NCBI RefSeq assembly: GCF_036711975.1 | Contig: NC_091975.1 | Coordinates: 622,501-686,500 of the forward strand | Origin: Onthophagus taurus | Taxonomy: Eukaryota > Arthropoda > Insecta > Coleoptera > Scarabaeidae | Direction: 5' to 3' | DNA: 64,000 nucleotides | In this document: positions 12,763 to 57,689 of the stretch, in pieces | How the letters are laid out: each line of letters opens with the position of its first letter | How positions within the stretch are numbered: the first letter of the stretch is position 1 | The notes under the pieces: model-generated | The model's database searches: none | Told to the model about the DNA's origin: nothing | What the model saw: only the letters and a program-made list of their open reading frames with translations | Program-made: the position numbers and the translations under genes

Positions 12763-13529
12763 TTTGAATTTTAAAGTATGTATTTTTGAAAAAGTAAGGG
12801 AAATTTTCTGTTTACAGTGTTTTCATTTACGTTAAAGAGCAAAACCGTTTGGCAACCGTTCTGCATTCAATATAAGGACGAGCTGCTGCCAAGTGGGACC
12901 CCTTCATTTTTTAAAGGACCTGCTGTTGCGCTCACATAATGAGCTTGTTGCACGGGCCGCAGGCGTTGCTCTAGTCACTTGGGGTTGCAATAGCACGTCC
13001 TGCTTTGCTTCCTTCTCCTATCGGAATCAACAGTTATCTCGTCAATCTTGAATATTCAGTTCTTTGTTTTTTTGAAAATCAATGTATTTACTGAATTAGA
13101 GTCGTTAGGGATATTTATTTGGTGGAGGACAACGCAGGGTTGGAGGCGGCGTGTGTTTAAATTAATTATGTCGAGTAAATAATTCGGCGACACATATTGC
13201 GTTAATATTTCAGACCGAAACTGGGGCGGCAATTCGAATTTTAATAACGGTGGGTGGCTCACAATATTTGTTGCTACGCCCCAAACTATAGTTAGCGGGG
13301 CGGCGTACCCATCCACTCGAGGGTGCTGTTAATGCCATAAATAATCAATTAAATAAACATATTTATTGTTGCGGACCGAACCGACTGCCTGTTTACGCCG
13401 CAAAATGTGACGCGTCGAACCGATTCGAAAATGTCGTTTTCACAGAAATCATTTTCAACGACAAACATTATTACAAGCGCAAATATATGCAGAGGTGAAA
13501 ATACGATCGATATGGTTCTTTTGGAATTC
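12763..13529. other. GC-richer single-copy stretch
   Basis: This is the 5' flank of the unrecognised gene. It contrasts with the AT-rich satellite that follows and contains CpG-bearing words and TAATTA-type homeodomain-like words. Frames at 13056-13316 and 13349-13546 (minus) show no family resemblance or splice support. It may be regulatory or conserved noncoding DNA; this cannot be shown from one sequence. Confidence 0.35.
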
Positions 13530-15955
13530 TTTTCTGGAAATTTCAATAATATTATAATATAGTTTTTATATCATATCATAAACTAGAATCTTTAAGCTAC
13601 AATTTAACATATTAAGCATGCCGTTATCTATAATAATACGGATGATATGATTTTTTGAAAATTTCGTATTATTTTTAATTTATAAATTTGACAGTTTCTT
13701 CTTTAATAATTATTTCCTGGAAATTTCAATAATATTATAATATAGTTTTTGTATCATATCATAAACTAGAATCTTTAAGCTACAATTTAACATATCAAGC
13801 ATGCCGTTATCTATAATAATACGGATGATATGATTTCTTGAAAATTTCGTATTATTTTTAATTTATAAATTTGACAATTTCTTCTTTAATAATTATTTCC
13901 TGGAAATTTCAATAATATTACCTTATAGTTTTTATATCATATCATAAACCAGACTCATTAAGCTTCAATTTAACATATGAAGCATACCGTTATCCTTAAA
14001 AATACCGATGATATGATTTTTTGATAATTTCGTATTATTTTGATTTATAAATTTAACAGTTTCTACTTTAATAATTTTTTCCTGGAAATTTCAATAATAT
14101 TATAATATAGTTTTTATATCATATCATAAACTAGAATCTTTAAGCTACAATTTAACATATTAAGCATGCCGTTATCTATAATAATACGGATGATATGATT
14201 TCTTGAAAATTTCGTATTATTTTAATTTATAAATTTGACAATTTCTTCTTTAATAATTATTTCCTGGAAATTTCAATAATATTACCTTATAGTTTTTATA
14301 TCACATCATAAACCAGACTCATTAAGCTTCAATTTAACATATGAAGCATACTGTTATCCTTAAAAATACCGATGATATCAATTTTTGATAATTTCGTATT
14401 ATTTTGATTTATAAATTTGACAGTTTCTTCTTTAATAATTATTTCCTGGAAATTTCAATAATATTGTAATATAGTTTTTATATCATATCATAAACTAGAA
14501 TCTTTAAGCTGCAATTTAACATATCAAGCATGCCGTTATCTATAATAATACGGATGATATGATTTCTTGAAAATTTCGTATTATTTTTAATTTATAAATT
14601 TGACAATTTCTTCTTTAATAATTATTTCCTGGAAATTTCAATAATATTACCTTATAGTTTTTATATCACATCATAAACCAGACTCATTAAGCTTCAATTT
14701 AATATATGAAGTATACCGCTATCTTTAAAAATACCGATGATATCATGTTTTGATAATTTCGTATTATTTTGATTTATAAATTTTACAGTTTTTTTCAATA
14801 AATTTCATAAATATTGTAATATAGTTTTTATATCATATCATAAACTAGAATCTTTAAGCTACAATTTAACATATCAAGCATGCCGTTATCTATAATAATT
14901 TTTTTGCTGGAAATTTCAATAATATTACCTTATAGTTTTTATATCATATCATAAACCAGACTCATTAAGCTTCAATTTAACATATGAAGCATACCGTTAT
15001 CCTTAAAAATACCGATGATATCATTTTTTGATAATTTCGTATTATTTTGATTTATAAATTTGAGTTTCTTCTTTAATAATTTTTTCCTGGAAATTTCAAT
15101 AATATTATCTTGTAGTTTTTTTATCATATCATAAACTAGAATCATTAAGCTTCAATTTAACATACATATCATATCAAAATTCCTAAAAACACAGTTAATA
15201 TGATGTTTTGAAAATTTATCTACTATTCATAAATTTGACACTTTTTTCTCTAATAATTTTTTCCTAGATATTTCAATAATATTACCTAATAGTTTTTATA
15301 TAATATCATAAACTAGAAGCTTTAAGCTTCAATTTAACATACAAATCATATCATGATTCTTTAAAATGCAGTAGATATGATTTTTCTAAAATTTCGTGTT
15401 ATGTTGATTTATAAATTTGGCAATTTGTTCTTCAACAATTTATTCCTGGAAATTTTAATAATATAATCTTATAGTTTTTATATCATATCATAAACTAGGA
15501 TTTTTAGGCTTCAATTTAACATACATATCATATCAAAATTCTCAAAATTACAGTCGATATGATTTTTTGAAAATTTAGTATTATTTTTAATTTATAAATT
15601 TGACAGTTTCTTCTTTAATAATTTTTTGCTGGAAATTTCAATAATATTACGATATAGTTTTTAGTTCATATCATAAGCTAGACTAATTAAGCTTCAATTT
15701 AACATATGAAGCATACCGCTATCCTTAAAAATACGGATGATCTGATTTTTTGAAAATTTCGTATTATTTTGATGTATAAATTTGGCAATTTCATCTATAA
15801 TAATTTTTTCCTGAAAATTTTAGTAATATTACTTAATAGTTTTTATATCATATCATAATTAAAATATCATACCAAAATCGTTAAAAACACAATCGATATG
15901 ATTTTTTTCAAAAATTTCTCGTTATTTTTTAATTTATTCTCAACCATATCATATT
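13530..15955 (-). repeat. Satellite S1 array, left inverted arm
   Basis: About 13 tandem units of roughly 182 bp, oriented opposite to the arrays at 17.7-20.2 and 29.7-33.9 kb. Units contain TTCAATAATATTA, TATATCATATCATAAAC and GGAAATTTC. Two unit types partly alternate: one has GCATGCCGTTATC with AATCTTTAAGCTACAATT, the other GCATACCGTTATCC with GACTCATTAAGCTTC, so part of the array is a dimeric higher-order repeat. Units become more diverged towards 15.2-15.9 kb. No coding sequence is present. Confidence 0.92.
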
Positions 15956-16316
15956 CGTATCTTTGAGTAGTTGAAACGTCTCGAAATTGCTTTACGAAAC
16001 GGAAGAAAGGGTTTCCAGCCGTTTTTCAAAAGGAATTTTTGTTGCAAAAAGGTTGTGTATACTCTTGAAATGTATCGTGCATTCTTAAATTTAAACGTGG
16101 ATGAGCACGCAGTGAAATTTACCTTCCCGCTGGACCGTCGGGTTGGCCCTACCGGGGCGCGTTGCTATAGCACCCGAAAGCAAAATTTATCGACTTGTTT
16201 ATGGAAACTTTTTGTCCGGTAACGTATTACCGTGCCATTTTTCATGTTCGGGCGGGTTCTGCCGTTGCAGATTTTAAACTATGATATATACACGGATGTA
16301 TCATCGAATTTTATTT
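15956..16316. other. Single-copy spacer between the left S1 arm and the protease homolog
   Basis: Mixed-composition unique sequence downstream of the protease-homolog gene. An 83-codon plus frame (15971-16222) has no family resemblance. Nothing further was recognised. Confidence 0.35.
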
Positions 16317-17129
16317 TTACATGTTACAAAGGAAAATAATTAGCAACAAAAATCGTTTTATACTCATTCTGATTTGTTGGGATGATGATCTTAAGTTTAA
16401 ATTTTTGATTGAGATGGTTCCGTTGATAACTCTTTGAATGAAAAGGAGGTGCTTTTTGAGGTTTGTGTACCCAATTAGATATCCTTTTTCGTCACAACCT
16501 AAAATCTTGGTGATTACTCCTATTTGTACGTTGTCGTTGCACATAATTGGACCACCCCTGTTTAAGATGCAATCTGCGGTTATTGAAGAAAATGCGTTTT
16601 TGGTACATCCAAAGTCATCGTTGATTTTTCCGCACTCACTCTTTTCCACGGCAACCATTTTTTCGCATTTAACACTTCGCTCGTTGTTTCGAGTATTTTT
16701 TTCTAACCTAGCCATAAATGAGATGTCGCAATTTGCTATTTCATAACTATCTGTAACATTCCCATATTTGATAACGCGATTTTCCAAAATGCTTTCTTTT
16801 AACTTAATCAGACAAAGATCCTGATTGAAAACAACGCTTAATATTTTCGAAATAAAATTGGTTTCTCTCCAAATCAACAAACCAAATCCAACGTGCGCCG
16901 TTTTTGGGTTCAAATCCAAACAACATTGTTCCGAGGTTAAAACCCAATCTTGGCTTAACAAAGATCCGGTGCAAATCACTTCATCGTTATTTTTGATAAT
17001 TCCTAAATACTTATAACACCGCTCCATCGATTCCAACCTTTCCACGTGCGATAAACGGAAATTATCTCCTCGCATTAGCTTAAAATTAATTAGAACTAAA
17101 ACAATAATTACTTTGACGTTGTCAGTCAT
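16317..17129 (-). CDS. Intronless serine-protease homolog, catalytically dead
   Basis: About 270 residues from the ATG at 17129. A second ATG ten codons upstream (17159) is less likely, because the hydrophobic signal VKVIIVLVLINF follows the chosen start directly. A trypsin-like (S1) fold is visible: ICTGSLLSQDWVLTSEQCC around the histidine site, NQDLCLIKL at the aspartate site and LNRGGPIMC at the serine site. The catalytic His is Gln and the Ser is Arg, while the Asp remains, so it cannot be a protease. Such homologs act as cofactors or decoys in insect immune cascades. The C-terminus is hydrophobic (RFLLLIIFLC). No clip domain and no introns are present, unlike the SP1-SP5 family further along. 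It sits between two mirror-image satellite arms. Confidence 0.8.
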   Translation of the reverse strand: MTDNVKVIIVLVLINFKLMRGDNFRLSHVERLESMERCYKYLGIIKNNDEVICTGSLLSQDWVLTSEQCCLDLNPKTAHVGFGLLIWRETNFISKILSVVFNQDLCLIKLKESILENRVIKYGNVTDSYEIANCDISFMARLEKNTRNNERSVKCEKMVAVEKSECGKINDDFGCTKNAFSSITADCILNRGGPIMCNDNVQIGVITKILGCDEKGYLIGYTNLKKHLLFIQRVINGTISIKNLNLRSSSQQIRMSIKRFLLLIIFLCNM

Positions 17130-17159
17130 TTCTAAACAAAGACGAAACAATTCCGGCAA

Positions 17160-17664
17160 AGGAGCTGATTAAAATTTCATTGCATCAAGACTTTAGTTGA
17201 CTTCACTTTCGTGTTGGTCCAAAAATTCTTTTTTCGTCTATAACCTTAAATATTTTACGATCTCGATCCATAATAGACGCAATACCTTGACTTATTGATG
17301 CTTTCTGTTCTAAGTGAACTACGTTTTTGGAACAAAAATGTGAAACTAAAAATCTCCGGGTGTATTGGAGTTAGTTTCGTTCGGGGGAGATAAATCCGGG
17401 TGAATCGAGAGCGTTCGTCCGCCATTCAAATGGCGGATTCGAGGGGGTCGCAACGAAGCCGCCGATCTGTGAGAACGGATAAATAAAACGCCCGAATCGA
17501 CTGGATGGGGAAATAAATAGCTTCGAGTTATTGGATCTCGTTTTTACATCCGCGAGAGCGTTCGGATGGGGATTAGGTGCTTTTCCGGTTACTACAGTCA
17601 GTCTCGTTCCACTCGTGATGCATCTTGATTAGTAACTGATTTTGATAAAGTGGAACCGATTTAT
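17160..17664. promoter_or_regulatory. 5' flank of the protease homolog with a GC-rich hairpin
   Basis: Single-copy, GC-richer sequence. At 17418-17437 a perfect inverted repeat with 9-base arms reads TCCGCCATT-CA-AATGGCGGA. Each arm contains GCCAT, the core word bound by Pho/YY1-type factors. The hairpin is read directly; any binding is inference. Confidence 0.4.
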
Positions 17665-20215
17665 TACAAAAACTCATTAAAGAAATTAAAAATTTAATTT
17701 TTAATAATATTGACATGATATGTATGTTAACTTGAAGTTTAAAGATAAGGTTTCTTTCAAAATATCATATTAACTGTGTTTCTAGGAATCTTGATATGAT
17801 ATGTATGCTAAATTGTGCCTTAATGAGTCCAGTTTATGATATGATATAAAAACTAGAAGGTAAGATTATTGAAATTTCCAGAAAAAAACTATTAAAGAAG
17901 AAATTGCCAAATTTATAAATTAAAAATAATACGAAATTTTCAAAAAATCATATCGACTGTAATTTTGAGATATTTGATATGATATGTATGTTAAATTGAA
18001 GCCTAAAAATCCTAGTTTATGGTATGATATAAAAACTATAAGATTATATTATTAAAATTTCGAGGAATAAATTGTTGAAGAACAAATTGCCAAATTTATA
18101 AATCAAAATAACACGAAATTTTAGAAAAATCATATCTACTGCATTTTAAAGAATCATGATATGATTTGTATGTTAAATTGAAGCTTAAAGCTTCTAGTTT
18201 ATGATATTATATAAAAACTATTAGGTAATATTATTGAAATATCTAGGAAAAAATTATTAGAGAAGAAAGTGTTAAATTTATGAATAGTAGATAAATTTTC
18301 AAAACATCATATTAACTATGTTTTTTGGAATCTTGATATGATATGTATGTTAAATTGAAGCTTAATGATTCTATTTATAATATTATTGAAATTTCCAGAA
18401 AAAAATTATTAAAGAAGAAACTGTTAAATTTATAAATCAAAATAATACGAAATTATCAAAAAATTATATCATCGGTATTTTTAAGGATAACGGTATGCTT
18501 CATTTGTTAAATTGAAGCTTAATTAGTCTAGCTTATGATATGATATAAAAACTATAAGGTAATATTATTGAAATTTCCAGGAAATAATTATTAAAGAAGA
18601 AATTGTCAAATTTATAAATTAAAAATAATACGAAATTTTCAAGAAATCATATCATCCGTATTATTATAGATAACGGCATGCTTGATATGTTAAATTGTAG
18701 CTTAAAGATTCTAGTTTATGATATGATATAAAAACTATATTATAATATTATTGAAATTTCCAGGAAAAAATTATTAAAGAAAAAACTGTTAAATTTATAA
18801 ATCAAAATAATACGAAATTATCAAAAAATGATATCGTCGGTATTTTTAAGGATAACGGTATGCTTCATATGTTAAATTGAAGCTTAATGAGTCTGGTTTA
18901 TGATATGATATAAAAACTATAAGGTAATATTATTGAAATTTCCAGGAAATAATTATTAAAGAAGAAATTGTCAAATTTATAAATTAAAAATAATACGAAA
19001 TTTTCAAGAAATCATATCATCCGTATTATTATAGATAACGGCATGCTTGATATGTTAAATTGTAGCTTAAAGATTCTAGTTTATGATATGATATAAAAAC
19101 TATATTATAATATTATTGAAATTTCCAGGAAAAAATTATTAAAGAAGAAACTGTTTAATTTATAAATCAAAATAATACGAAATTATCAAAAAATCATATC
19201 ATCGGTATTTTTAAGGATAACGGTATGCTTCATATGTTAAATTGAAGCTTAATGAGTCTGGTTTATGATATGATATAAAAACTATAAGGTAATATTATTG
19301 AAATTTCCAGAAAAAAATTATTAAAGAAGAAACTGTTAAATTTATAAATTAAAAATAATACGAAATTTTCAAGAAATCATATCATCCGTATTATTATAGA
19401 TAACGGCATGCTTGATATGTTAAATTGTAGCTTAAAGATTCTAATTTATGATATGATATAAAAACTATATTATAATATTATTGAAATTTCCAGGAAAAAA
19501 TTATTAAAGAAGAAACTGTTAAATTTATAAATCAAAATAATACGAAATTATCAAAAAATCATATCATCGGTATTTTTAAGGATAACGGTATGCTTCATAT
19601 GTTAAATTGAAGCTTAATGAGTCTGGTTTATGACATGATATAAAAACTATAAGGTAATATTATAGAAATTTCCAGGAAATAATTATTAAAGAAGAAACTG
19701 TCAAATTTATAAATTAATAATAATACGAAATTTTCAAGAAATCATATCATTCGTATTATTATAGATAACGGCATGCTTGATATGTTAAATTGTAGCTTAA
19801 AGATTCTAATTTATGATATGATATAAAAACTATATTATAATATTATTGAAATTTCCAGGAAAAAATTATTAAAGAAGAAACTGTTAAATTTATAAATCAA
19901 AATAATACGAAATTATCAAAAAATCATATCATCCGTATTTTTAAGGATAACGGTATGCTTCATATGTTAAATTGAAGCTTTATTAGTCTAGCTTATGATA
20001 TGAACTAAAAACTATATCGTAATATTATTGAAATTTCCAGCAAAAAATTATTAAAGAAGAAACTGTCAAATTTATAAATTAAAAATAATACGAAATTTTC
20101 AAAAAATCATATCATCCGTATTATTAAGGATAACGATATGCTTTTTATGTTAAATTGAAGTAATAATAAGTCTATCTTATGATATGATATAAAAACTAGT
20201 AATATTATTGAAATT
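17665..20215 (+). repeat. Satellite S1 array, right inverted arm
   Basis: About 13-14 units of roughly 182 bp in the orientation opposite to the left arm. The most diverged units are again at the inner edge (17.7-18.4 kb). Variant words seen in the left arm recur in mirrored order: GTCGATATG-type, then the GCAGTAGATATG-type, then CTACTATTCATAA-type. The outer edge of each arm falls at the same monomer position (around GAAATTTCAATAATATT), as expected for two halves of one inverted duplication. Confidence 0.92.
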
Positions 20216-20990
20216 TTCACATTTTCAAAGTTTTCTCGATATTTATGCATCTGAGAGCAAGAGTGTAATAGTATATTAAAAATGTTAAATTCATTAAAAA
20301 ATTTTTAATGAATGAGTGCTTTAAGTCTAATGAAACGTGTTTTTTATGCTATTTTTTGTAATTCGTGTTTTTATACTTTTTTTTAACAAAAATAAAGTAA
20401 ATTTTGGCAATGTAGGGAAATAGGTATGTAGCAGTTGGTAACACCGGAACACTTGAAAATAGAAACTTTGAATTGACAATTAGAAACTGTCAAAACACAA
20501 AATATATTCACCTGAAAAAAATGTTTGATGTACACCTCCCAAAATAAGAGAAATTGCTCAGAGTCAATGTCCTCATCATTGTGGACCTTGTATTCGACGC
20601 TAAGAACGTGTTTAAACATCCATAGACAAAAATTGTCACATTGACAACTAGAAAAATTAATGACCCAATGTCACCAACTTGAACTGGTTCCATAAAATGT
20701 TACTAAAATCTCATTACAGCATCGGATGCTGTAAGGAGTCTCATTACAGCACCCGTTTGAGTACTGTTATAGCTTCCATTACCGTACTTTCTTACTAAAA
20801 CGTTCCGAATCACGTACTCTACTAACAACAAGATGTAAAACCACAATTTCATCTAAATTTCACTTTTTCGAAATTTTGTCGATATTTATGCATCTGATTG
20901 TGAGAGCAAAAGTGTAAAAGAGCAATATTGTTAAAAATACCAAAACTTTTTTACTACAACGTTCCAAACCCGTACTCTAAGATATACAAC
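20216..20990. other. Intergenic stretch with dispersed repeat words and a perfect palindrome
   Basis: Two copies of a dispersed word (TCGATATTTATGCATCTGA with a GAGCAA tail) lie at about 20232-20285 and 20878-20935. At 20714-20734 TTACAGCATC and GATGCTGTAA form a palindrome with one central base, and ATTACAGCA recurs at 20743. Minus frames at 20383-20693 could be a decayed gene, but I recognise no family. Confidence 0.4.
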
Positions 20991-29665: not shown

Positions 29666-32600
29666 TTTGGAAATCATATCATCCGTATTATTAAGGATAA
29701 CGTTATGCTTCATATTTTAAATTGAAGCTTAATGACTCTAGTTTATGATATGATATAAAAACTATAAGGTAATATTATTGAAATTTCCAGGAAAAAGTTA
29801 TTAAAGATAATATTGTCAAATTTATAAATCTAAATAATACGAAATTTTCAAAAAAACATATCATCCGTATTATTACAGATAACGATATGCTTCATATGTT
29901 AAATTGGAACTTATTGAGTCTAGTTTATGATATGATATAAAAACAATAAGGTAATATTATTGAAATTTCCAGAAAAAAATTATTAAAAATTAAATTGCCA
30001 AATTTATAAGTCAAAATAATACGAAATTTTCAAAAAAATATATCATCCGTATTTTTAAGGATAACGGTATGCTTCATATGTTAAATTGAAGCTTAATGAC
30101 TCTAGTTTATGATATGATATAAAAACTATAAGATAATATTATTGAAATTTCCAGAAAAAAATTATTAAAGATGAAATTGCCAAATTTATAAGTCAAAATA
30201 ATACGAAATTTTCAAAAAAACATATCATCCGTATTTTTAAGGATAACGGTATGCTTCATATGTTAAATTGAAGCTTATTGAGTCTAGTTTATGATATGAT
30301 ATAAAAACAATAAGGTAATATTATTGAAATTTCCAGAAAAAAATTATTAAAGATGAAATTGCCAAATTTATAAGTCAAAATAATACGAAATTTTCAAAAA
30401 AATATATCATCCGTATTTTTAAGGATAACGGTATGCTTCATATGTTAAATTGAAGCTTAATGAGTCTAGTTGATGATATGATATAAAAACTATAAGGTAA
30501 TATTATTGAAATTTCCAGAAAAAAATTATTAAAGAAGAAACTGTTAAATTTATAAATCAAAATAATACGAAATTATCAAAAAATGATATCATCGGTATTT
30601 TTAAGGATAACGGTATGCTTCATATGTTAAATTGAAGCTTATTGAGTCTAGTTTATGATATGATATAAAAACAATAAGGTAATATTACTGAAATTTCCAG
30701 AAAAAAATTATTAAAGAAGAAACCGTTAAATTTATAAATCAAAATAATACGAAATTATCAAAAAATGATATCATCCGTATTTTTAAGGATAACGGTATGC
30801 TTCATATGTTAAATTGAAGCTTAATGACTCTAGTTTATGATATGATATAAAAACTATAAGGTAATATTATTGAAATTTCCAGGGAAAAATTATTAAAGAA
30901 GAAATTATCAAATTTATAAATTAAAAATAATACGAAATTTTCAAAAAATCATATCATCCATATTTTTGAAGATAACGGTATGCTTCATATGTTAAATTGA
31001 AGCTTAATGAGTCTAGTTGATGATATGATATAAAAACTATAAGGTAATATTATTGAAATTTCCAGAAAAAAATTATTAAAGAAGAAACTGTTAAATTTAT
31101 AAATCAAAATAATACGAAATTATCAAAAAATGATATCATCCATATTTTTGAAGATAGCGGTATGCTTCATATGTTAAATTGAAGCTTAATGACTCTAGTT
31201 TATGATATAATATAAAAACTATAAGGTAATATTATTGAAATTTCCAGAAAAAAATTATTAAAGAAGAAATTGTTAAATTTATAAATCAAAATAATACGAA
31301 TTTATCAAAAAATGATATCGTCGGTATTTTTAAGGATAACGGTATGCTTCATATGTTAAATTGAAGCTTAATGACTCTAATTTATGATATGATATAAAAA
31401 CTATAAGGTAATATTATTGAAATTTTCAAAAAAACATATCATCCGTATTTTTAAAGATAACGATATGCTTCATATGTTAAATTGAAGCTTATTGAGTCTA
31501 GTTTATGATATGATATAAAAACTACAAGGTAATATTATTGAAATTTCCAGGGAAAAATTATTAAAGATGAAATTGCCATATTTATAAATCAATATAATAT
31601 GAAATTTTCAAAAAAACATATCATCCGTATTTTTAAAGATAACGATATGCTTCATATGTTAAATTGAAGCTTATTGAGTCTAGTTTATGATATGATATAA
31701 AAACTATAAGATAATATTATTGAAATTTCTAGAAAAAAATTATTAAAGATGATATTGCCAAATTTATAAGTCAAAATAATACGAAATTTTCAAAAAAACA
31801 TATCATCCGTATTTTTAAGGATAACGGTATGCTTCATATGTTAAATTGAAGCTTATTGAGTCTAGTTTATGATATGATATAAAAACTATAAGGTAATATT
31901 ATTGAAATTTCCAGGAAATAATTATTAAAGAAGAAACTGTCAAATTTATAAATCAAAATAATACGAAATTATCAAAAAATGATATCATGGGTATTTTTAA
32001 GGATAACGGTATGCTTCATATGTTAAATTGAAGCTTATTGAGTCTAGTTTATGATATGATATAAAAACTATAAGGTAATATTATTGAAATTTCCAGAAAA
32101 AAATTATTAAAGATGAAATTGCCAAATTTATAAGTCAAAATAATACGAAATTTTCAAAAAAATGATATCATCGGTATTTTTAAGGATAACGGTATGCTTC
32201 ATATGTTAAATTGAAGCTTATTGAGTCTAGTTTATGATATGATATAAAAACTATAAGGTAATATTATTGAAATTTCCAGGAAATAATTATTAAAGAAGAA
32301 ACTGTCAAATTTATAAATCAAAATAATACGAAATTATCAAAAAATGTTATCATGGGTTTTTTTAAGGATAACGGTATGCTTCATATGTTAAATTGAAGCT
32401 TATTGAGTCTAGTTTATGATATGATATAAAAACTATAAGGTAATATTATTGAAATTTCCAGAAAAAAATTATTAAAGATGAAATTGCCAAATTTATAAGT
32501 CAAAATAATACGAAATTTTCAAAAAAATGATATCATCGGTATTTTTAAGGATAACGGTATGCTTCATGTGTTAAATTGAAGCTTATTGAGTCTAGTTTAT

Positions 32601-33930
32601 GATATGATATAAAAACAATAAGGTAATGTTATTGAAATTTCCAGAAAAAAGTTATTAAAGATGAAATTGCCAAATTTATAAATCAAAATAATACGAAATT
32701 TTTAAAAAAACATATCATCCGTATTATTACACATAACGATATGCTTCATATGTTAAATTGAAGCTTATTGAGTCTAGTTTATGATATGATATAAAAACAA
32801 TAAGGTAATATTATTGAAATTTCCAGAAAAAAATTATTAAAGATGAAATTGCCAAATTTATAAGTCAAAATAATACGAAATTTTCAAAAAAATGATATCA
32901 TCGGTATTTTTAAGGATAACGGTATGCTTCATATGTTAAATTGAAGCTTAATGACTCTAGTTTATGATATGATATAAAAACTATAAGGTAATATTATTGA
33001 AATTTCCAGGGAAAAATTATTAAAGAAGAAACTGTTAAATTTATAAATCAAAATAATACGAAATTATCAAAAAATGATATCATCGGTATTTTTAAGGATA
33101 ACGGTATGCTTCATATGTTAAATTGAAGCTTATTGAGTCTAGTTTATGATATGATATAAAAACTATAAGGTAATATTATTGAAATTTCCAGAAAAAAATT
33201 ATTAAAGATGAAATTGCCAAATTTATAAATCAAAATAATACGAAATTTTCAAAAAATCATATCATCCATATTTTTGAAGATAACGGTATGCTTCATATGT
33301 TAAATTGAAGCTTAATGAGTCTAGTTGACGATATGATATAAAAACTGTAAGGTAATATTATTGAAATTTCCAGAAAAAAATTATTAAAGAAGAAACTGTT
33401 AAATTTATAAATCAAAATAATACGAAATTATCAAAAAATGATATCATCGGTATTATTACAGATAACGATATGCTTCATATGTTAAATTGGAGCTTAATGA
33501 GTCTAGTTGATGATATGATATAAAAACTATAAGGTAATATTATTGAAATTTCCAGAAAAAAATTATTAAAGATGAAATTGCCAAATTTATAAATCAAAAT
33601 AATACGAAATTTTCAAAAAATCATATCATCCATATTTTTGAAGATAACGGTATGCTTCATATGTTAAATTGAAGCTTAATGAGTCTAGTTGACGATATGA
33701 TATAAAAACTGTAAGGTAATATTATTGAAATTTCCAGAAAAAAATTATTAAAGAAGAAACTGTTAAATTTATAAATCAAAATAATACGAAATTATCAAAA
33801 AATGATATCATCGGTATTATTACAGATAACGATATGCTTCATATGTTAAATTGGAGCTTAATGAGTCTAGTTGATGATATGATATAAAAACTATAAGGTA
33901 ATATTATTGAAATTTCCAGGAAAAAATTAA
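29666..33930 (+). repeat. Satellite S1 array, long unpaired array
   Basis: About 23 units of 182 bp, measured from repeats of AAGGATAACGGTATGCTTC at 30057, 30239, 30421, 30603 and 30785, in the same orientation as the right inverted arm. Units differ in blocks (GATGAAATTGCC against GAAGAAACTGTTAAA; ATCATCCGTATT against ATCATCGGTATT). A 364-bp dimer is duplicated cleanly near 33.3 and 33.65 kb. The right edge falls at the same monomer position as the outer edges of the inverted arms. Confidence 0.93.
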
Positions 33931-35480
33931 AAAGTATTAAGGAAAAAAATATCAAATATATAATATTTTATAATTTTATTTGTTACCATTTACATAGAAA
34001 GATACATTAAACGTCAATTTTTATTGACTTCTTATGTTGTTGCTGATTTTAATAAACGAATTTGAATTAAAGGGATCTTGGACCAACATCAAAATGGCTT
34101 GATGTGCTTTTGTACACTTTTTATTCTTTTTTTTAATGATTCAAAGTAAAACTAATCGAGCGCTCATCGTTCACTGAAATTCCATAGCCGGGGCAAGTCG
34201 AATTCAGTTAAATTGTCGACATTCTCAACGTAAGATGGGCGTCACGACGCCCCATAAATATTTATAAAAGCCCAGTACTGACGCTATCAGTGTTTGCGTT
34301 CGGTTTGTCACCCGTCGACGACTGATGTCGGACCGTCCATGAATAATGGAAAGGAACCCATCGCGTTGGAAAATACTACCGCGTCATCGGTAACAGTTAA
34401 TTTACAAAGAGTTTACATTGTCTTTTGCACGAGAGAAAGGGACAAAGTAGTACATGACCACGAAGACTGTAACGTCGAAATGCAATGCCATAAAATTGTT
34501 ATTCGACGATCGCGAGTTCTTCATTGTTCATATCTTCGGGCGCCAATAACCGACCGAACAGTCGGCACGAAATTGCCGCTCTCCGATAGGTCGTAATATG
34601 CAAACTACCTCCGCGAATTCGAAAATCTCCCCAGACACGCAATAAGACTCCAAACGGCAGATGAAAAAAAAAGAAAAAAAGATAAAAACGGAAGAAACCG
34701 AGTCCCTACTACCATGCCGGTTGATAATAACCATTCGAAGAGACGCAACAGCGCCTCTGGCGGCCTGTGGAGACACCTCTCAATTCACCGCTGTATCGTG
34801 TATCGATTGTTTAACGTTCCTTTGTCCTAGGATATTGTCTGTTTGTCCTACATACACCCGTGCACAAAGCGCCCTTAATGGAAGCTCTCGTTGCACGAAA
34901 GTCCAGATAAGACCTGCGAAAACTAATAATTACATCTCAGCACGTTTTGCTATCTCCCTAATATACAGGTGTTTTAAAAGTGCTCTCCTAGACGTAGTAA
35001 AGAAAACAATAAAGAAATTCTTACACCTTAAAGATATTGTTATGAACATTATAAAAGTTTTATTTTACCCAAGTTACTCAGAAGAGGTAGAAAAGGAGTT
35101 GGAAATATTTTCGGAAAAGTTTGAAAACTAAAAAAAAAGAGGAAAATAGGGGGTGAAATTCGGTTCTAAAGTTGGTTGCCTTTATAAAGGAAACGCACAG
35201 TGGGAGCGGGAAGTTGCGGCGACGGACCCAGTATCTCTTGCCAAGTCCTAGAGGGCCGCCATTAGGGTTTCCGGTACGGTCGGGAGCGTCTCTCTTCCAC
35301 CTGAATAATTTTCAATTTGAGCCTTCTCCAGATTAAAACCCGCCTAATGCCTAATGAACGGCCGCTTCCGTCAATTCGATGTCGACGGGTCCTTTCCATC
35401 CGCGACGCGATTCCTGCTAAATGAGGCTGTACGACACCTCTTCACGACATTATAATCTCGTTGAAACACCCGGACGTAAT
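33931..35480. other. GC-rich single-copy island with a candidate promoter
   Basis: Unique sequence. A possible core promoter lies at 34263-34291 (listed separately), with a 7-base-arm GC palindrome GGGCGTC-AC-GACGCCC at 34237-34252. Frames at 34294-34596 and 34661-35131 (plus) show no domain and no codon pattern that convinces me. Confidence 0.35.
34263..34291 (+). promoter_or_regulatory. Candidate TATA/Inr core promoter
   Basis: TATAAAAG (34263-34270) is followed 17 bases later by TCAGT (34287-34291), so the initiator A is 26 bases from the TATA start, within the arthropod range. A GC palindrome sits 11 bases upstream. The transcript would cover an ATG-initiated frame from about 34339 (MNNGKEPIALENTTASS) of unknown nature. 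It may be a noncoding RNA or enhancer promoter, or chance. Confidence 0.3.
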
Positions 35481-39074: not shown

Positions 39075-42000
39075 TTATGTCAAATGTCAAAAAAGATAAA
39101 ATTTTAATTGTCTTATCTTAAATTAAAGCTTAAAGATTACTCTTTAAAATGGTGTATAATAATCCTTAAGTTGTATTATAAAAATATCGAGAAAAATAAT
39201 GTTGAGTTAGAACCTACGTTTTTGCTTAATACATAAATGTCAAAAAAAGGTAAAATTTTAAGAATTCGTGGAATCTTTGTTTATGGAAATAAAGAAACGA
39301 GTCATATCTCAAAATAAAGCTTAAAGATTTCTCGTCAAAATGATGTATAATAATCATTGGGATGCATAATAAAAATATGGAGAAAAGAAATGAATGAGTT
39401 AAAACCAACATTTTTATTTAATCTATAAGTGTCCAAAAAGGTAAAATTTTAAGAATTCGTGGAAGCTTTGTTTATGGAAACAAAGGAATGAGATTAATCT
39501 TAAATTAAAACTTAAAGATTACTCTTTAAAATGGTGTATAATAATCGTTAGGTTGCATTATAAAAATATCGAGAAAAATAATGTTGAGTTAGAACCTACG
39601 TTTTTGCTTAATACATAAATGTCAAAAAAGGTAAAATTTTAAGAATTCGTGGAATCTTTGTTTATGGAAATAAAGAAACGAGTCATATCTCAAAATAAAG
39701 CTTAAAGATTTCTCGTCAAAATGATGTATAATAATCATTAGGTTGCATAATAAAAATATGGAGAAAAGAAATGTTGAGTTAAAACCAACATTTTTATTTA
39801 ATCTATAAGTGTCCAAAAAGGTAAAATTTTAAGAATTCGTGGAAGCTTTGTTTATGGAAACAAAGGAATGAGATTAATCTTAAATTAAAGCTTAAACATT
39901 ACTCTTTAAAATGGTGTATAATAATCGTTACGTTGTATTATAAAAATATCGAGAAAAATAATGTTGAGTTAGAACCTACGTTTTTGCTTAATACATAAAT
40001 GTCAAAAAAGGTAAAATTTTAAGAATTCGTGGAATCTTTGTTTATGGAAATAAAGAAACGAGTCATATCTCAAAATAAAGCTTAAAGATTTCTCGTTCAA
40101 ATGATGTATAATAATCATTAGGTTGCATAATAAAAATATGGAGAAAAGAAATGTTGAGTTAAAACCAACATTTTTATTTAATCTATAAGTGTCCAAAAAG
40201 GTAAAATTTTAAGAATTCGTGGAAGCTTTGTTTATGGAAACAAAGGAATGAGATTAATCTTAAATTAAAGCTTAAACATTACTCTTTAAAATGGTGTATA
40301 ATAATCGTTACGTTGTATTATAAAAATATCGAGAAAAATAATGTTGAGTTAGAACCTACGTTTTTGCTTAATACATAAATGTCAAAAAAGGTAAAATTTT
40401 AAGAATTCGTGGAATCTTTGTTTATGGAAATAAAGAAACGAGTCATATCTCAAAATAAAGCTTAAAGATTTCTCGTCAAAATGATGTATAATAATCATTG
40501 GGATGCATAATAAAAATATGGAGAAAAGAAATGAATGAGTTAAAACCAACATTTTTATTTAATCTATAAGTGTCCAAAAAGGTAAAATTTTAAGAATTCG
40601 TGGAAGCTTTGTTTATGGAAACAAAGGAATGAGATTAATCTTAAATTAAAGCTTAAAGATTACTCTTTAAAATGGTGTATAATAATCGTTAGGTTGTATT
40701 ATAAAAATATCGAGAAAAATAATGTTGAGTTAGAACCTACGTTTTTGCTTAATACATAAATGTCAAAAAAGGTAAAATTTTAAGAATTCGTGGAATCTTT
40801 GTTTATGGAAATAAAGAAACGAGTCATATCTCAAAATAAAGCTTAAAGATTTCTCGTTCAAATGATGTATAATAATCATTAGGTTGCATAATAAAAATAT
40901 GGAGAAAAGAAATGTTGAGTTAAAACCAACATTTTTATTTAATCTATAAGTGTTCAAAAAGATAAAATTTTAAGAATTCGTGGAAGCTTTGTTTATGGAA
41001 ACAAAGGAATGAGATTAATCTTAAATTAAAGCTTAAAGATTACTCTTTAAAATGGTGTATAATAATCGTTACGTTGTATTATAAAAATATCGAGAAAAAT
41101 AATGTTGAGTTAGAACCTACGTTTTTGCTTAATACATAAATGTCAAAAAAGGTAAAATTTTAAGAATTCGTGGAATCTTTGTTTATGGAAATAAAGAAAC
41201 GAGTCATATCTCAAAATAAAGCTTAAAGATTTCTCATCAAAATGATGTATAATAATCATTGGGTTGCATAATAAAAATACGGAGAAAAGAAATGTTGAGT
41301 TAAAACCAACATTTTTATTTAATCTATAAGTGTCCAAAAAGGTAAAATTTTAAGAATTCGTGGAAGCTTTGTTTATAGAAACAAAGGAATGAGATTAATC
41401 TTAAATTAAAGCTTAAAGATTACTCTTTAAAATGGTGTATAATAATCGTTACGTTGTATTATAAAAATATCGAGAAAAATAATGTTGAGTTAGAACCTAC
41501 GTTTTTGCTTAATATATAAATGTCAAAAAAGGTAACATTTTAAGAATTCGTGGAATCTTTGTTTATGGAAATAAAGAAACGAGTCATATCTCAAAATAAA
41601 GCTTAAAGATTTCTCGTCAAAATGATGTATAATTCTCATTGGGTTGCATAATAAAAATATGGAGAAAAGAAATGAATGAGTTAAAACCAACATTTTTATT
41701 TAATCTATAAGTGTCCAAAAAGGTAAAATTTTAAGAATTCGTGGAAGCTTTGTTTATGGAAACAAAGGAATGAGATTAATCTTAAATTAAAGCTTAAAGA
41801 TTACTCTTTAAAATGGTGTATAATAATCGTTACGTAGTATTATAAAAATATCGAGAAAAATAATGTTGAGTTAGAACCTACGTTTTTGCTTAATACATAA
41901 ATGTCAAAAAAAGGTAAAATTTTAAGAATTCGTGGAATCTTTGTTTATGGAAATAAAGAAACGAGTCATATCTCAAAATAAAGCTTAAAGATTTCTCGTC

Positions 42001-42230
42001 AAAATGATGTATAATAATCATTGGGTTGCATAATAAAAATATGGAGAAAAGAAATGTTGAGTTAAAACCAACATTTTTATTTAATCTATAAGTGTCCAAA
42101 AAGGTAAAATTTTAAGAATTCGTGGAAGCTTTGTTTATGGAAACAAAGGAATGAGATGAATCTTAAATTAAAGCTTAAAGATTACTCTTTAAAATGGTGT
42201 ATAATAATCGTTAGGTTGTATTATAAAAAT
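39075..42230 (+). repeat. Satellite S2 array, 380-bp dimeric units
   Basis: About eight dimers, each made of two related units of roughly 190 bp. One half carries AAAGATTACTCTTTAAAATG and ATCGAGAAAAATAATGTTG. The other carries AAAGATTTCTCGTCAAAATG and ATGGAGAAAAGAAATG. The shared part is GGTAAAATTTTAAGAATTCG. The dimer step is 380-381 bp (39622, 40002, 40763 and 41143 mark equivalent points). Minus-strand frames of 61-69 codons recur in most dimers but are a by-product of repetition, not genes. Confidence 0.93.
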
Positions 42231-43029
42231 ATCTTTATTAAGGAAGTTCAGCTTAACTATCTGCCTTGAACACGATTACCATATACTTGATTTTTAAACC
42301 TTGATATTTCACGTAACGTTTTTGATAATAAATTGAACTTTAATGCTTTCATTAATTCTTTTCATAGAGTTTATTTTATTATGTTTCATTCATTGTTTAA
42401 AAAAAACGCAAAATCTCTTTTAATTAAATCTAGATAAATTTTATGAATAATTTCATGATTATATTTACAAAAATAACACCATTAATGACGTCAACGAATA
42501 CAACGACAATAGCTTTTTCATAAAATTCACATAATTACTTCGCATTTTCACGGTCACGTCACTTTTTGTGTTGTTGTTTTTATGCTCAGTTTCACAATCA
42601 CATATAAAGTTCCACTATGTAATTATGTTATACACTTTAAAAATAAGCAATTACTGATTTTAAAAGTAAAAGAAATGATGACTTTTATAATAATAATATT
42701 TCAAGTTATCGCGTTGATCTAATTTCATAAAGTGTTATAACATTTTGACTCGTAGGAGTTAACGTTGTCCCTTTCCTTCCGTAATTCGGGTTGAATTACA
42801 ACATAACTTTTAACCTGCTCTAGTAAAATAATTATGGTTCTACCGATAAGACAAAACGTAAAATCATTAAAAAGCACAATCTCTAGAAAGTTACAAATTA
42901 AAACACTAGGATTAACTCAGATTTAAGGTAACAGCTCCCTAAATACCTGAAAAAGCACAGCAGCAGTTATTGTAACTTATTTATTGTAACCGAAGGGGGC
43001 TCATAATAAGAGTTATATTAAGAATAAAA
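42231..43029. other. AT-rich intergenic stretch
   Basis: I see no gene, RNA or repeat family in this stretch. Confidence 0.4.
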
Positions 43030-53729: not shown

Positions 53730-56700
53730 TTACTTATGTTTATTTATGTCTCAAATTGAAGATTAAAGCTTCTATTTTAAGATGTTGTGTGATATATAGG
53801 GTGTTTGATTAAAAATTTTTTTAGAAAAAGGCGTTTGAAAAAATGTTGTTTGAATTAGGTTAAGTTTGAAATTGTTAAAAAAGTAAGAATTTCAAAAAAT
53901 TACCACGTCCACATTTTTAAGAGTTAGAAAACGATTTATGTCTCAAATTGAAGATTAAAGCTTCTATTCTAAGGTGGTGTATGATATGTAGGGTGTTTAA
54001 CTAAAAAAATTTTTTTTAAAATGCGTTTGAAGAAATGTTGTTTGAATTAGGTTAAGTTTGAAATTGTTAAAAAAGTAAGAATTTCAAAAAATCACCACGT
54101 CCACATTTTTAAGAGTTAGAAAACGATTTATGTCTCAAATTGAAGATTAAAGCTTCTATTCTAAGGTGGTGTATGATATGTAGGGTGTTTAACTAAAAAT
54201 TTTTTTTAAAAAATGCGTTTGAAGAAATGTTGTTTGAATTAGGTTAAGTTTGAAATTGTCAAAAATGTAAGAATTTCAAAAAATCACCACGTCCACATTT
54301 TTAAGAGTTAAGAAACGATTTATATCTCAAATTGAAGATTAAAGCTTCTATTTTAAGATGGTGTATGATATGTAGGGTGTTTGATTAAAAATTTTTTTAG
54401 AAAAAGGCGTTTGAAAAAATGTTGTTTGAATTAGGTTAAGTTTGAAATTGCCAAAAAAGTAAGAATTTCAAAAAATCACCACGTCCACATTTTTAAGAGT
54501 TAGAAAACGATTTATGTCTCAAATTGAAGATTAAAGCTTCTATTCTAAGATGGTGTATGATATGTAGGGTGTTTAACTAAAAAATTTTTTAGAAATAGGC
54601 ATTTGAAGAAATGTTGTTTGAATTAGGTTAAGTTTGAAATTGTCAAAAAAGTAAAAATTTCAAAAAATCACCACGTCCACTTTTTTAATAGTTAGAAAAC
54701 GATTTATATCTCAAATTGAAGATTAAAGCTTCTATTTTAAGATGGTGTATGATATGTAGGGTGTTTGATTAAAAATTTTTTTAGAAAAAGGCGTTTGAAG
54801 AAATGTTGTTTGAATTAGGTTAAGTTTGAAATTGCCAAAAAAGTAAGAATTTCAAAAAATCACCACGTCCACATTTTTAAGAGTTAGAAAACGATTTATG
54901 TCTCAAATTGAAGATTAAAGCTTCTATTCTAAGATGGTGTATGATATGTAGGGTGTTTAACTAAAAAATTTTTTAGAAAAAGGCATTTGAAGAAATGTTG
55001 TTTGAATTAGGTTAAGTTTGAAATTGCCAAAAAAGTAAGAATTTCAAAAAATCACCACGTCCACATTTTTAAGAGTTAGAAAACGATTTATGTCTCAAAT
55101 TGAAGATTAAAGCTTCTATTCTAAGATGGTGTATGATATGTAGGGTGTTTAACTAAAAAATTTTTTAGAAATAGGCATTTGAAGAAATGTTGTTTGAATT
55201 AGGTTAAGTTTGAAATTGTCAAAAAAGTAAAAATTTCAAAAAATCACCACGTCCACTTTTTTAATAGTTAGAAAACGATTTATATCTCAAATTGAAGATT
55301 AAAGCTTCTATTTTAAGATGGTGTATGATATGTAGGGTGTTTGATTAAAAATTTTTTTAGAAAAAGGCGTTTGAAGAAATGTTGTTTGAATTAGGTTAAG
55401 TTTGAAATTGCCAAAAAAGTAAGAATTTCAAAAAATCACCACGTCCACATTTTTAAGAGTTAGAAAACGATTTATGTCTCAAATTGAAGATTAAAGCTTC
55501 TATTTTTAAGATGGTGTATGATATGTAGGGTGTTTGATTAAATTTTTTTTTAGAAAAAGGCGTTTGAAGAAATGTTGTTTGAATTAGGTTAAGTTTGAAA
55601 TTGTCAAAAAAGTAAGAATTTCAAAAAATCACCACGTCCACATTTTTAATAGTTAGGAAACGATTTCTGTCTCAAATTGAAGATTAAAGCTTCTATTCTA
55701 AGATGGTGTATGATATGTAGGGTGTTTAACTAAAAAATTTTTTAGAAAAAGGCATTTGAAGAAATGTTGTTTGAATTAGGTTAAGTTTGAAATTGTCAAA
55801 AAAGTAAGAATTTCAAAAAATCACCACGTCCACATTTTTAAGAGTTAGAAAACGATTTATGTCTCAAATTGAAGATTAAAGCTTCTATTCTAAGGTGGTG
55901 TATGATATGTAGGGTGTTTAACTAAAAAATTTTTTTTAAAAATGCGTTTGAAGAAATGTTGTTTGAATTAGGTTAAGTTTGAAATTGTCAAAAAAGTAAG
56001 AATTTCAAAAAATCACCACGTCCACATTTTTAATAGTTAGGAAACGATTTATATCTCAAATTGAAGATTAAAGCTTCTATTTTAAGATGGTGTATGATAT
56101 GTAGGGTGTTTGATTAAAAATTTTTTTAGAAAAAGGCGTTTGAAGAAATGTTGTTTGAATTAGGTTAAGTTTGAAATTGCCAAAAAAGTAAGAATTTCAA
56201 AAAATCACCACGTCCACATTTTTAAGAGTTAGAAAACGATTTATGTCTCAAATTGAAGATTAAAGCTTCTATTCTAAGATGGTGTATGATATGTAGGGTG
56301 TTTAACTAAAAAATTTTTTAGAAAAAGGCATTTGAAGAAATGTTGTTTGAATTAGGTTAAGTTTGAAATTGCCAAAAAAGTAAGAATTTCAAAAAATCAC
56401 CACGTCCACATTTTTAAGAGTTAGAAAACGATTTATGTCTCAAATTGAAGATTAAAGCTTCTATTCTAAGATGGTGTATGATATGTAGGGTGTTTAACTA
56501 AAAAATTTTTTAGAAATAGGCATTTGAAGAAATGTTGTTTGAATTAGGTTAAGTTTGAAATTGTCAAAAAAGTAAAAATTTCAAAAAATCACCACGTCCA
56601 CTTTTTTAATAGTTAGAAAACGATTTATATCTCAAATTGAAGATTAAAGCTTCTATTTTAAGATGGTGTATGATATGTAGGGTGTTTGATTAAAAATTTT

Positions 56701-57660
56701 TTTAGAAAAAGGCGTTTGAAGAAATGTTGTTTGAATTAGGTTAAGTTTGAAATTGCCAAAAAAGTAAGAATTTCAAAAAATCACCACGTCCACATTTTTA
56801 AGAGTTAGAAAACGATTTATGTCTCAAATTGAAGATTAAAGCTTCTATTTTTAAGATGGTGTATGATATGTAGGGTGTTTGATTAAATTTTTTTTTAGAA
56901 AAAGGCGTTTGAAGAAATGTTGTTTGAATTAGGTTAAGTTTGAAATTGTCAAAAAAGTAAGAATTTCAAAAAATCACCACGTCCACATTTTTAAGAGTTA
57001 GAAAACGATTTATGTCTCAAATTGAAGATTAAAGCTTCTATTCTAAGGTGGTGTATGATATGTAGGGTGTTTAACTAAAAAATTTTTTTAAAAAATGCGT
57101 TTGAAGAAATGTTGTTTGAATTAGGTTAAGTTTGAAATTGCCAAAAAAGTAAGAATTTCAAAAAATCACCACGTCCACATTTTTAAGAGTTAGAAAACGA
57201 TTTATGTCTCAAATTGAAGATTAAAGCTTCTATTCTAAGATGGTGTATGATATGTAGGGTGTTTAACTAAAAAATTTTTTAGAAAAAGGCATTTGAAGAA
57301 ATGTTGTTTGAATTAGGTTAAGTTTGAAATTGTCAAAAAAGTAAAAATTTCAAAAAATCACCACGTCCACTTTTTTAATAGTTAGAAAACGATTTATATC
57401 TCAAATTGAAGATTAAAGCTTCTATTTTAAGATGGTGTATGATATGTAGGGTGTTTGATTAAATTTTTTTTTAGAAAAAGGCGTTTGAAGAAATGTTGTT
57501 TGAATTAGGTTAAGTTTGAAATTGTCAAAAAAGTAAGAATTTCAAAAAATCACCACGTCCACATTTTTAATAGTAAGGAAACGATTTATGTCTCAAATTG
57601 AAGATTAAAGCTTCTATTTTAAGATGGTGTATGATATGTAGGGTGTTTGATTAAAATTTT
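53730..57660 (+). repeat. Satellite S3 array, 192-bp unit with higher-order structure
   Basis: About 20 units, measured from TGTAGGGTGTTT at steps of 192 (53799, 53991, 54183, 54375, 54567, 54759). Units share AATCACCACGTCCAC and TGTTTGAATTAGGTTAAG. Variants differ at the GTTTGATTAAA or GTTTAACTAAA site and the GGCGTTTG or GGCATTTG site. The variant order from 54759 repeats from 56103, a 1344-bp (7-unit) step. The array lies entirely inside the remains of SP4. Confidence 0.93.
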
Positions 57661-57689
57661 TTTTTGAAAAAGTTGTTTAGACTCTGTTA

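Follow-up and report, generated by a model that had tools for sequence, protein, structure and literature searches.

Two arrays of the satellite S1, opposite in orientation and near-equal in length, flank a single-copy spacer with a serine protease homologue gene and share private, diverged repeat units in mirrored order. They lie in the window, which is the whole 64,000-nucleotide stretch of Onthophagus taurus contig NC_091975.1 analysed here (positions 622,501 to 686,500; contig C10 of an assembly of 291 Mb in 33 contigs). We propose that the two are sister S1 arrays, one having been copied in inverted orientation to the far side of a resident single-copy gene, an interpretation to which we give roughly an even chance of being correct.

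Arrangement of the S1 arms

S1 is an AT-rich satellite with a tandem unit of 182 bp. When an S1 profile was run on the window, 14 units were found on the minus strand at 13515–15901, 14 on the plus strand at 17765–20219 and 24, again on the plus strand, at 29673–33963. Inward partial units stretch the first two arrays to approximately 15940 and from approximately 17690, respectively. The left arm (L, 13515–15940, minus strand, approximately 2.43 kb) is thus made up of 14 unit hits and a partial 5′ unit at its inner edge, and the right arm (R, 17690–20219, plus strand, approximately 2.53 kb) of a partial unit and 14 unit hits. The 5′ ends of both arms point at the spacer and the 3′ ends point outward. 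The third array (A3, 29673–33963) is on the same strand as the right arm and does not include the private units described below.

The initial annotation, which was made from the letters of the window, had described two S1 arrays facing each other across a unique spacer, and this was borne out. The spacer occupies 15941–17689, and a search of its own genome with 15950–17700 found only the query itself; the left flank (12800–13524) is also single-copy, its genome search returning itself alone. One large inverted duplication had been offered as a possible origin of the whole, and that is supported for the S1 arms, which share private mirrored units, but it does not extend into unique DNA as both the spacer and the left flank are single-copy.

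Units shared by the two arms

Unit identities were computed among the arrays in the fetched loci (303 units, or 350 where kinship was counted) and not among all S1 units, and these loci were chosen among the best S1 hits, not at random. A genome-wide comparison was made for the L03–L04 block only, with a search in which some of the candidates are scored. Near the inner edges of the arms, L03 shares 97.2 % identity with R02 (next best 89.1 %) and L04 shares 98.8 % with R03 (next best 89.2 %) among the 303 units compared. L04–L03 (15205–15566, minus strand) and R02–R03 (17947–18289, plus strand) are in each case neighbours in the same 5′ to 3′ order and are, hence, mirrored on the chromosome, as the initial annotation had it for the diverged inner units. 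When the 362-bp L03–L04 block was compared to the genome, the right arm shared 98 % identity and no other sequence exceeded 88 % among the approximately 150 listed of 463 matches (best 40 of 510 candidates scored). As this diverged pair is mirrored at 97 and 99 % identity and no other listed match is above 88 %, the arms share a private history. The order of units along the arms agrees in the same direction, the L versus R comparison scoring 91.0 when straight and 74.0 when reversed, whereas shuffles of the R units had a mean of 51.5 and only 3 of 2000 reached 91.0.

Unit types (A, B, C and A′) were assigned by eye from the alignment. Read in this way from 5′ to 3′, both arms consist of 02-03-C followed by four A-B dimers, and an A′ unit precedes this block in L and follows it in R. 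L06, L07 and R04 are shortened, and R05 is a mosaic that includes part of the A′ signature.

S1 arrays and opposed pairs elsewhere in the genome

With up to 2 mismatches allowed, the assembly contains 2866 occurrences of a 23-base S1 pattern and none of the same pattern written backward, which served as a control. S1 arrays are dispersed over many contigs. The initial annotation had proposed a search for other loci with paired S1 arms, and these exist. In a list of 80 arrays there are five pairs whose two members are inverted and no more than 3 kb apart, namely the pair in the window and those at C10:1106/1109k, C10:8640/8641k, C10:10025/10027k and C6:14756/14758k, whereas random placement gave a mean of 0.056 and a maximum of 2 such pairs in 5000 trials. 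In four of the five, the 5′ ends point inward. The list of 80 arrays was typed by hand from partial genome listings and the fetched loci, hits on the same strand were merged by eye, and the lengths of contigs C11 and C15 were assumed for the random placement. Because of the hand merging, the finding of zero same-strand neighbours in this list is uninformative; for example, the minus-strand entry 8641830–8646964 on C10 is in fact two arrays approximately 2.9 kb apart (L044 contains no S1 hit after position 7586). The pairs at C10:1104–1111k and C6:14754–14760k are known as coordinates only.

In the pair at C10:8638–8644k, 14 of 15 units of one arm and 9 of 10 of the other have their closest relative, among the fetched arrays, in the opposite arm. 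In the minus-strand array of the pair at C10:10025k, the units are 97–100 % alike in their best mutual matches, and over 1259 bp this array shares no more than 89 % identity with anything else among the matches listed; one of its units has its best outside match (94.9 %) in the R arm of the window. The spacers of the C10:8640k and C10:10025k pairs contain no reading frame of at least 100 aa (ATG, GTG or TTG start) and, in a masked all-against-all comparison, had no match to the spacer in the window. In the L044 pair, both S1 arms (beside positions 1939 and 5809) adjoin the same hairpin-like sequence, which belongs to another repeat family.

Array ends and signs of movement

Though the initial annotation placed both outer edges at the same monomer position, they agree only approximately, with R stopping at unit position 117 and L running to approximately 127–137. 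This rough agreement is best seen as a trait of the family, as 7 of 16 other arrays have 3′ ends at positions 104–139 (L055 and the plus-strand array of L049, which are cut by the ends of their loci, were left out). The clustering of the ends is due in part to an element with the terminal inverted repeat (TIR) CAGTGTTCACCAAAAAGTCA, which joins S1 at position 113/114. In L048 (1927–4990) the element, its TIR lying next to TA, surrounds an S1 array, and this is the only locus in which TIRs were seen on both sides. L044, L048, L064, L067 and L070 all have the subterminal tail of the element joined to S1, at unit position 113/114. Twelve loci with the tail were fetched, and by the S1 profile four adjoin S1 and eight are without it. 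Searches of the window that allowed up to 4 mismatches or E<10 found neither the TIR nor the tail.

A search for target duplications at 13.53 and 20.22 kb had been suggested. None was recognised, as the direct repeats at the left arm, at the right arm and around the whole unit scored 7, 9 and 9, respectively, where random flank pairs score 7–11. An exact 8-mer common to both outer edges was not found within approximately 30 bp of them, though a short duplication that has eroded would escape this search. A 9-bp match at 13450 and 20220 adjoins the right edge but is 57 bp outside the left one, and is within chance. Over the 21 blocks on which direct-repeat tests were run, two long repeats were found, both outside the window. 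One is a perfect 55/55-bp direct repeat framing the nine-unit S1 array at L049:1485–3065 (C10:10024k), the array noted above for its nearly identical units, and a genome search revealed no further location of this repeat. The other, in L047 (score 32), was rejected as a duplication signal because it is part of a local repeat with several copies in the flanks. One flanking element common to S1 arrays was also considered and rejected, as the masked all-against-all comparison of 13 fetched loci and positions 10–36 kb of the window revealed no general shared flank. Judged by their surroundings, S1 arrays elsewhere do show apparent signs of movement, namely the array between TIRs in L048, the four beside the tail and the array framed by the 55-bp repeat.

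The gene in the spacer

One frame of the spacer was scanned against Pfam. Located at 16317–17129 on the minus strand, it is an intact, intronless open frame of 270 aa that is trypsin-like (Pfam Trypsin, 2.8e-17). In an alignment to trypsin, Gln replaces the catalytic His and Arg replaces the Ser, and the Asp is retained, in the columns that we take to be the catalytic ones. The initial annotation called this a dead protease, but the intact frame rules out a broken gene, and as far as can be judged from the alignment it is a serine protease homologue lacking the catalytic pair. The absence of introns had also been noted and could have pointed to capture of the gene. That inference was abandoned because seven further matches of the protein in the genome (down to E 3.5e-4) are likewise all in single open frames, with no stops.

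Origin of the paired arms

Copying of one arm from the other best accommodates the mirrored private units, the nearly equal lengths of the arms and the single-copy state of the middle. It is also favoured by the pair at C10:8638–8644k, in which the arms are likewise closest to each other, and by the excess of close inverted pairs over random placement. The source would have been one S1 array of approximately 12–13 units, with the diverged units 02-03-C at the 5′ end followed by four A-B dimers, and a copy of it would have landed in the opposite orientation beyond the serine protease homologue gene. The second arm may have arisen by template switching at a break or by re-insertion of an excised, perhaps circular, copy attracted by the array already present. 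That A′ is inner in one arm and outer in the other could reflect subsequent exchange, or a circle that opened at another point. The gene would be a bystander and a transposase would not be required.

Several observations weigh against this interpretation. L02 (15568–15745, minus strand), the second unit from the inner edge of L, has its best relative in R13 (19923–20101, plus strand; 97.8 %, next 94.3 %), the second unit from the outer edge of R, and this breaks the simple mirror that had been described. Consistent with this, rotating R by 10–12 units gives an order score of 92.8, slightly above the 91.0 of the straight order. The A′ signature is also partly present in R05, so that rotation is no likelier an explanation than exchange between units. 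The arms are also not each other's only close relatives. Among the fetched arrays, the best outside match is in R for 9 of the 14 L units, in L043 for four and in A3 for one, and that of the 14 R units is in L for seven and in L043 for the other seven, so that L043, though 450 kb away, is as close to the arms as they are to one another. L05 and one unit of L043 even form a private pair (94.4 %, next 92.0 %). Private pairs were, however, not seen between R and L043, L and A3, or R and A3 in the unit comparison, and as the A-B part is common to the arms and L043, it is the diverged inner units that link L to R. Two further difficulties are that the arms at C10:10024–10031k have no special kinship, none of the best outside matches of their 9 and 23 units being in the other arm, and that the direct-repeat test did not find a break-point signature at the arm edges.

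A serious rival to copying is that a single S1 array of approximately 28 units beside the gene was split by a 4.3-kb inversion that took in the gene and the R arm and had one of its breaks within the array. The diverged units found in both arms would then stem from a 12-unit block that was present twice in tandem. It is taken seriously because the outer end of R (position 117) and the inner end of L (approximately 143, by eye) could be halves of one unit from which approximately 26 bp was lost, and it accounts for the match of L02 to R13 without rotation or conversion. However, the break must then have hit near the middle of the array, exactly where the repeated block restarts, and R14 and L01, which are diverged or truncated in the manner of edge units, would have been in mid-array. 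We estimate that the positional fit would arise by accident about one time in seven, and regard the inversion as possible but doubtful.

Two independent S1 insertions, one to each side of the gene and subsequently homogenised by gene conversion, would be in keeping with the arrival of S1 arrays at new sites (the array framed by the 55-bp repeat and that between TIRs in L048) and with the existence of an inverted pair with unrelated arms. Yet target duplications and TIRs were not recognised at either arm, conversion would have had to install identical edge units at mirrored positions, and random placement yields far too few close inverted pairs. Hence, we consider this origin unlikely.

The initial annotation also offered a foldback-type element as the source of the shape, and suggested that the unit may have moved or duplicated as a block with the gene inside it. 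A foldback DNA transposon with S1 arms, similar to Tetris or Galileo, that captured the protease gene would account for the long inverted tandem-repeat arms around a middle domain, and elsewhere S1 is tied to a TIR element. The 9-bp match touches the right edge of the unit, and a duplication of 8–10 bp would fall inside the chance range of the direct-repeat test. The element was nonetheless set aside as improbable, because the middle is single-copy with no second copy in the genome, it is unrelated to the spacers in two other opposed pairs, neither the TIR nor the tail of the S1-carrying element was found in the window and no target duplication was recognised. Finally, though inverted repeats are difficult to assemble, it is very improbable that one array was placed twice in opposite orientations by the assembly, because the arms differ by substitutions (1–3 % within the mirrored private units) as well as by truncations of their own, and have different outer flanks, and are therefore not a single sequence assembled twice.

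A wider interpretation can be entertained, though we hold it tentatively and think it rather doubtful. A process in this genome may specifically make inverted pairs of dispersed satellite arrays around spacers of 1.2–2.8 kb (with 5′ ends inward in four of five), and the pair in the window would be circularly permuted copies of a 12-unit block, i.e. circular satellite DNA re-inserted in the opposite orientation beside its source. If transcribed across, such pairs could give rise to hairpin RNAs from satellite DNA beside genes. The S1 pair bears on how satellite arrays enter gene-containing DNA and why they come to be paired in opposition. Private units that keep their order around a single-copy gene allow a copying event to be followed one unit at a time, and because close inverted pairs recur, a specific mechanism could be tested by comparison with related genomes.

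Other repeats in the window

Outside the right arm, and adjoining its outer side, is an abundant dispersed element (20262–20786, ends approximate, plus strand) that is approximately 0.5–0.6 kb long and sometimes tandem; its matches extend over 485 bp and mostly share 98–99 % identity (best 40 of 1815 candidates). Further into the right flank, 20835–20934 was found by the masked comparison to be 74–75 % identical to a tandem repeat in L043 (1–1345), which is located upstream of the sister array of that locus. Two other satellites in the window, with units of 190 and 192 bp (39110–42233 and 53742–57672), match the S1 profile weakly but regularly along a core of 80–130 bp, which suggests that they and S1 form one old satellite superfamily.

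Comparison with known systems

Among the titles and first abstract lines listed in the literature searches, none dealt with opposed arrays around single-copy genes. The Cg_HINE Helentrons of Crassostrea gigas carry satellite-like arrays (PMC7492417), and some S1 arrays are similar in being dispersed and tied to a non-autonomous element. That element is, however, of another class, and no ends of an element were found at the arms in the window. The TCAST transposon-like elements of Tribolium castaneum are repeated, up to 1181 bp long, and have TIRs of approximately 269 bp and a shared middle (PMC3411249). Like them, the S1 pair consists of inverted satellite around non-satellite DNA near genes, but it has long arrays and a unique middle.

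In Tetris, a foldback element of Drosophila virilis that has been linked to the origin of a satellite, tandem repeats of approximately 220 bp form inverted arms around a middle domain (PMC4079207). The S1 pair resembles it in having long inverted tandem-repeat arms around a middle. Tetris also has a flanking TIR domain and target duplications of 8–10 bp (PMC4079207), neither of which was recognised at the S1 pair, nor is the S1 pair repeated in the genome with a common middle and common ends, as a foldback element should be.

The macro-dyad symmetries of TmSat1 and TmSat2 in Tribolium madens, which are opposed subarrays in probably (peri)centromeric blocks, are stated to have been documented exclusively within Tribolium (PMC13081366). 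There, subarrays in megabase regions meet at a conserved inversion site, whereas S1 forms short dispersed arrays and the two arms are separated by a single-copy, gene-bearing spacer of 1.75 kb instead of abutting directly at such a site. As in T. madens, though, the S1 arrays are opposed over kilobases and would in principle be able to form very long hairpins.

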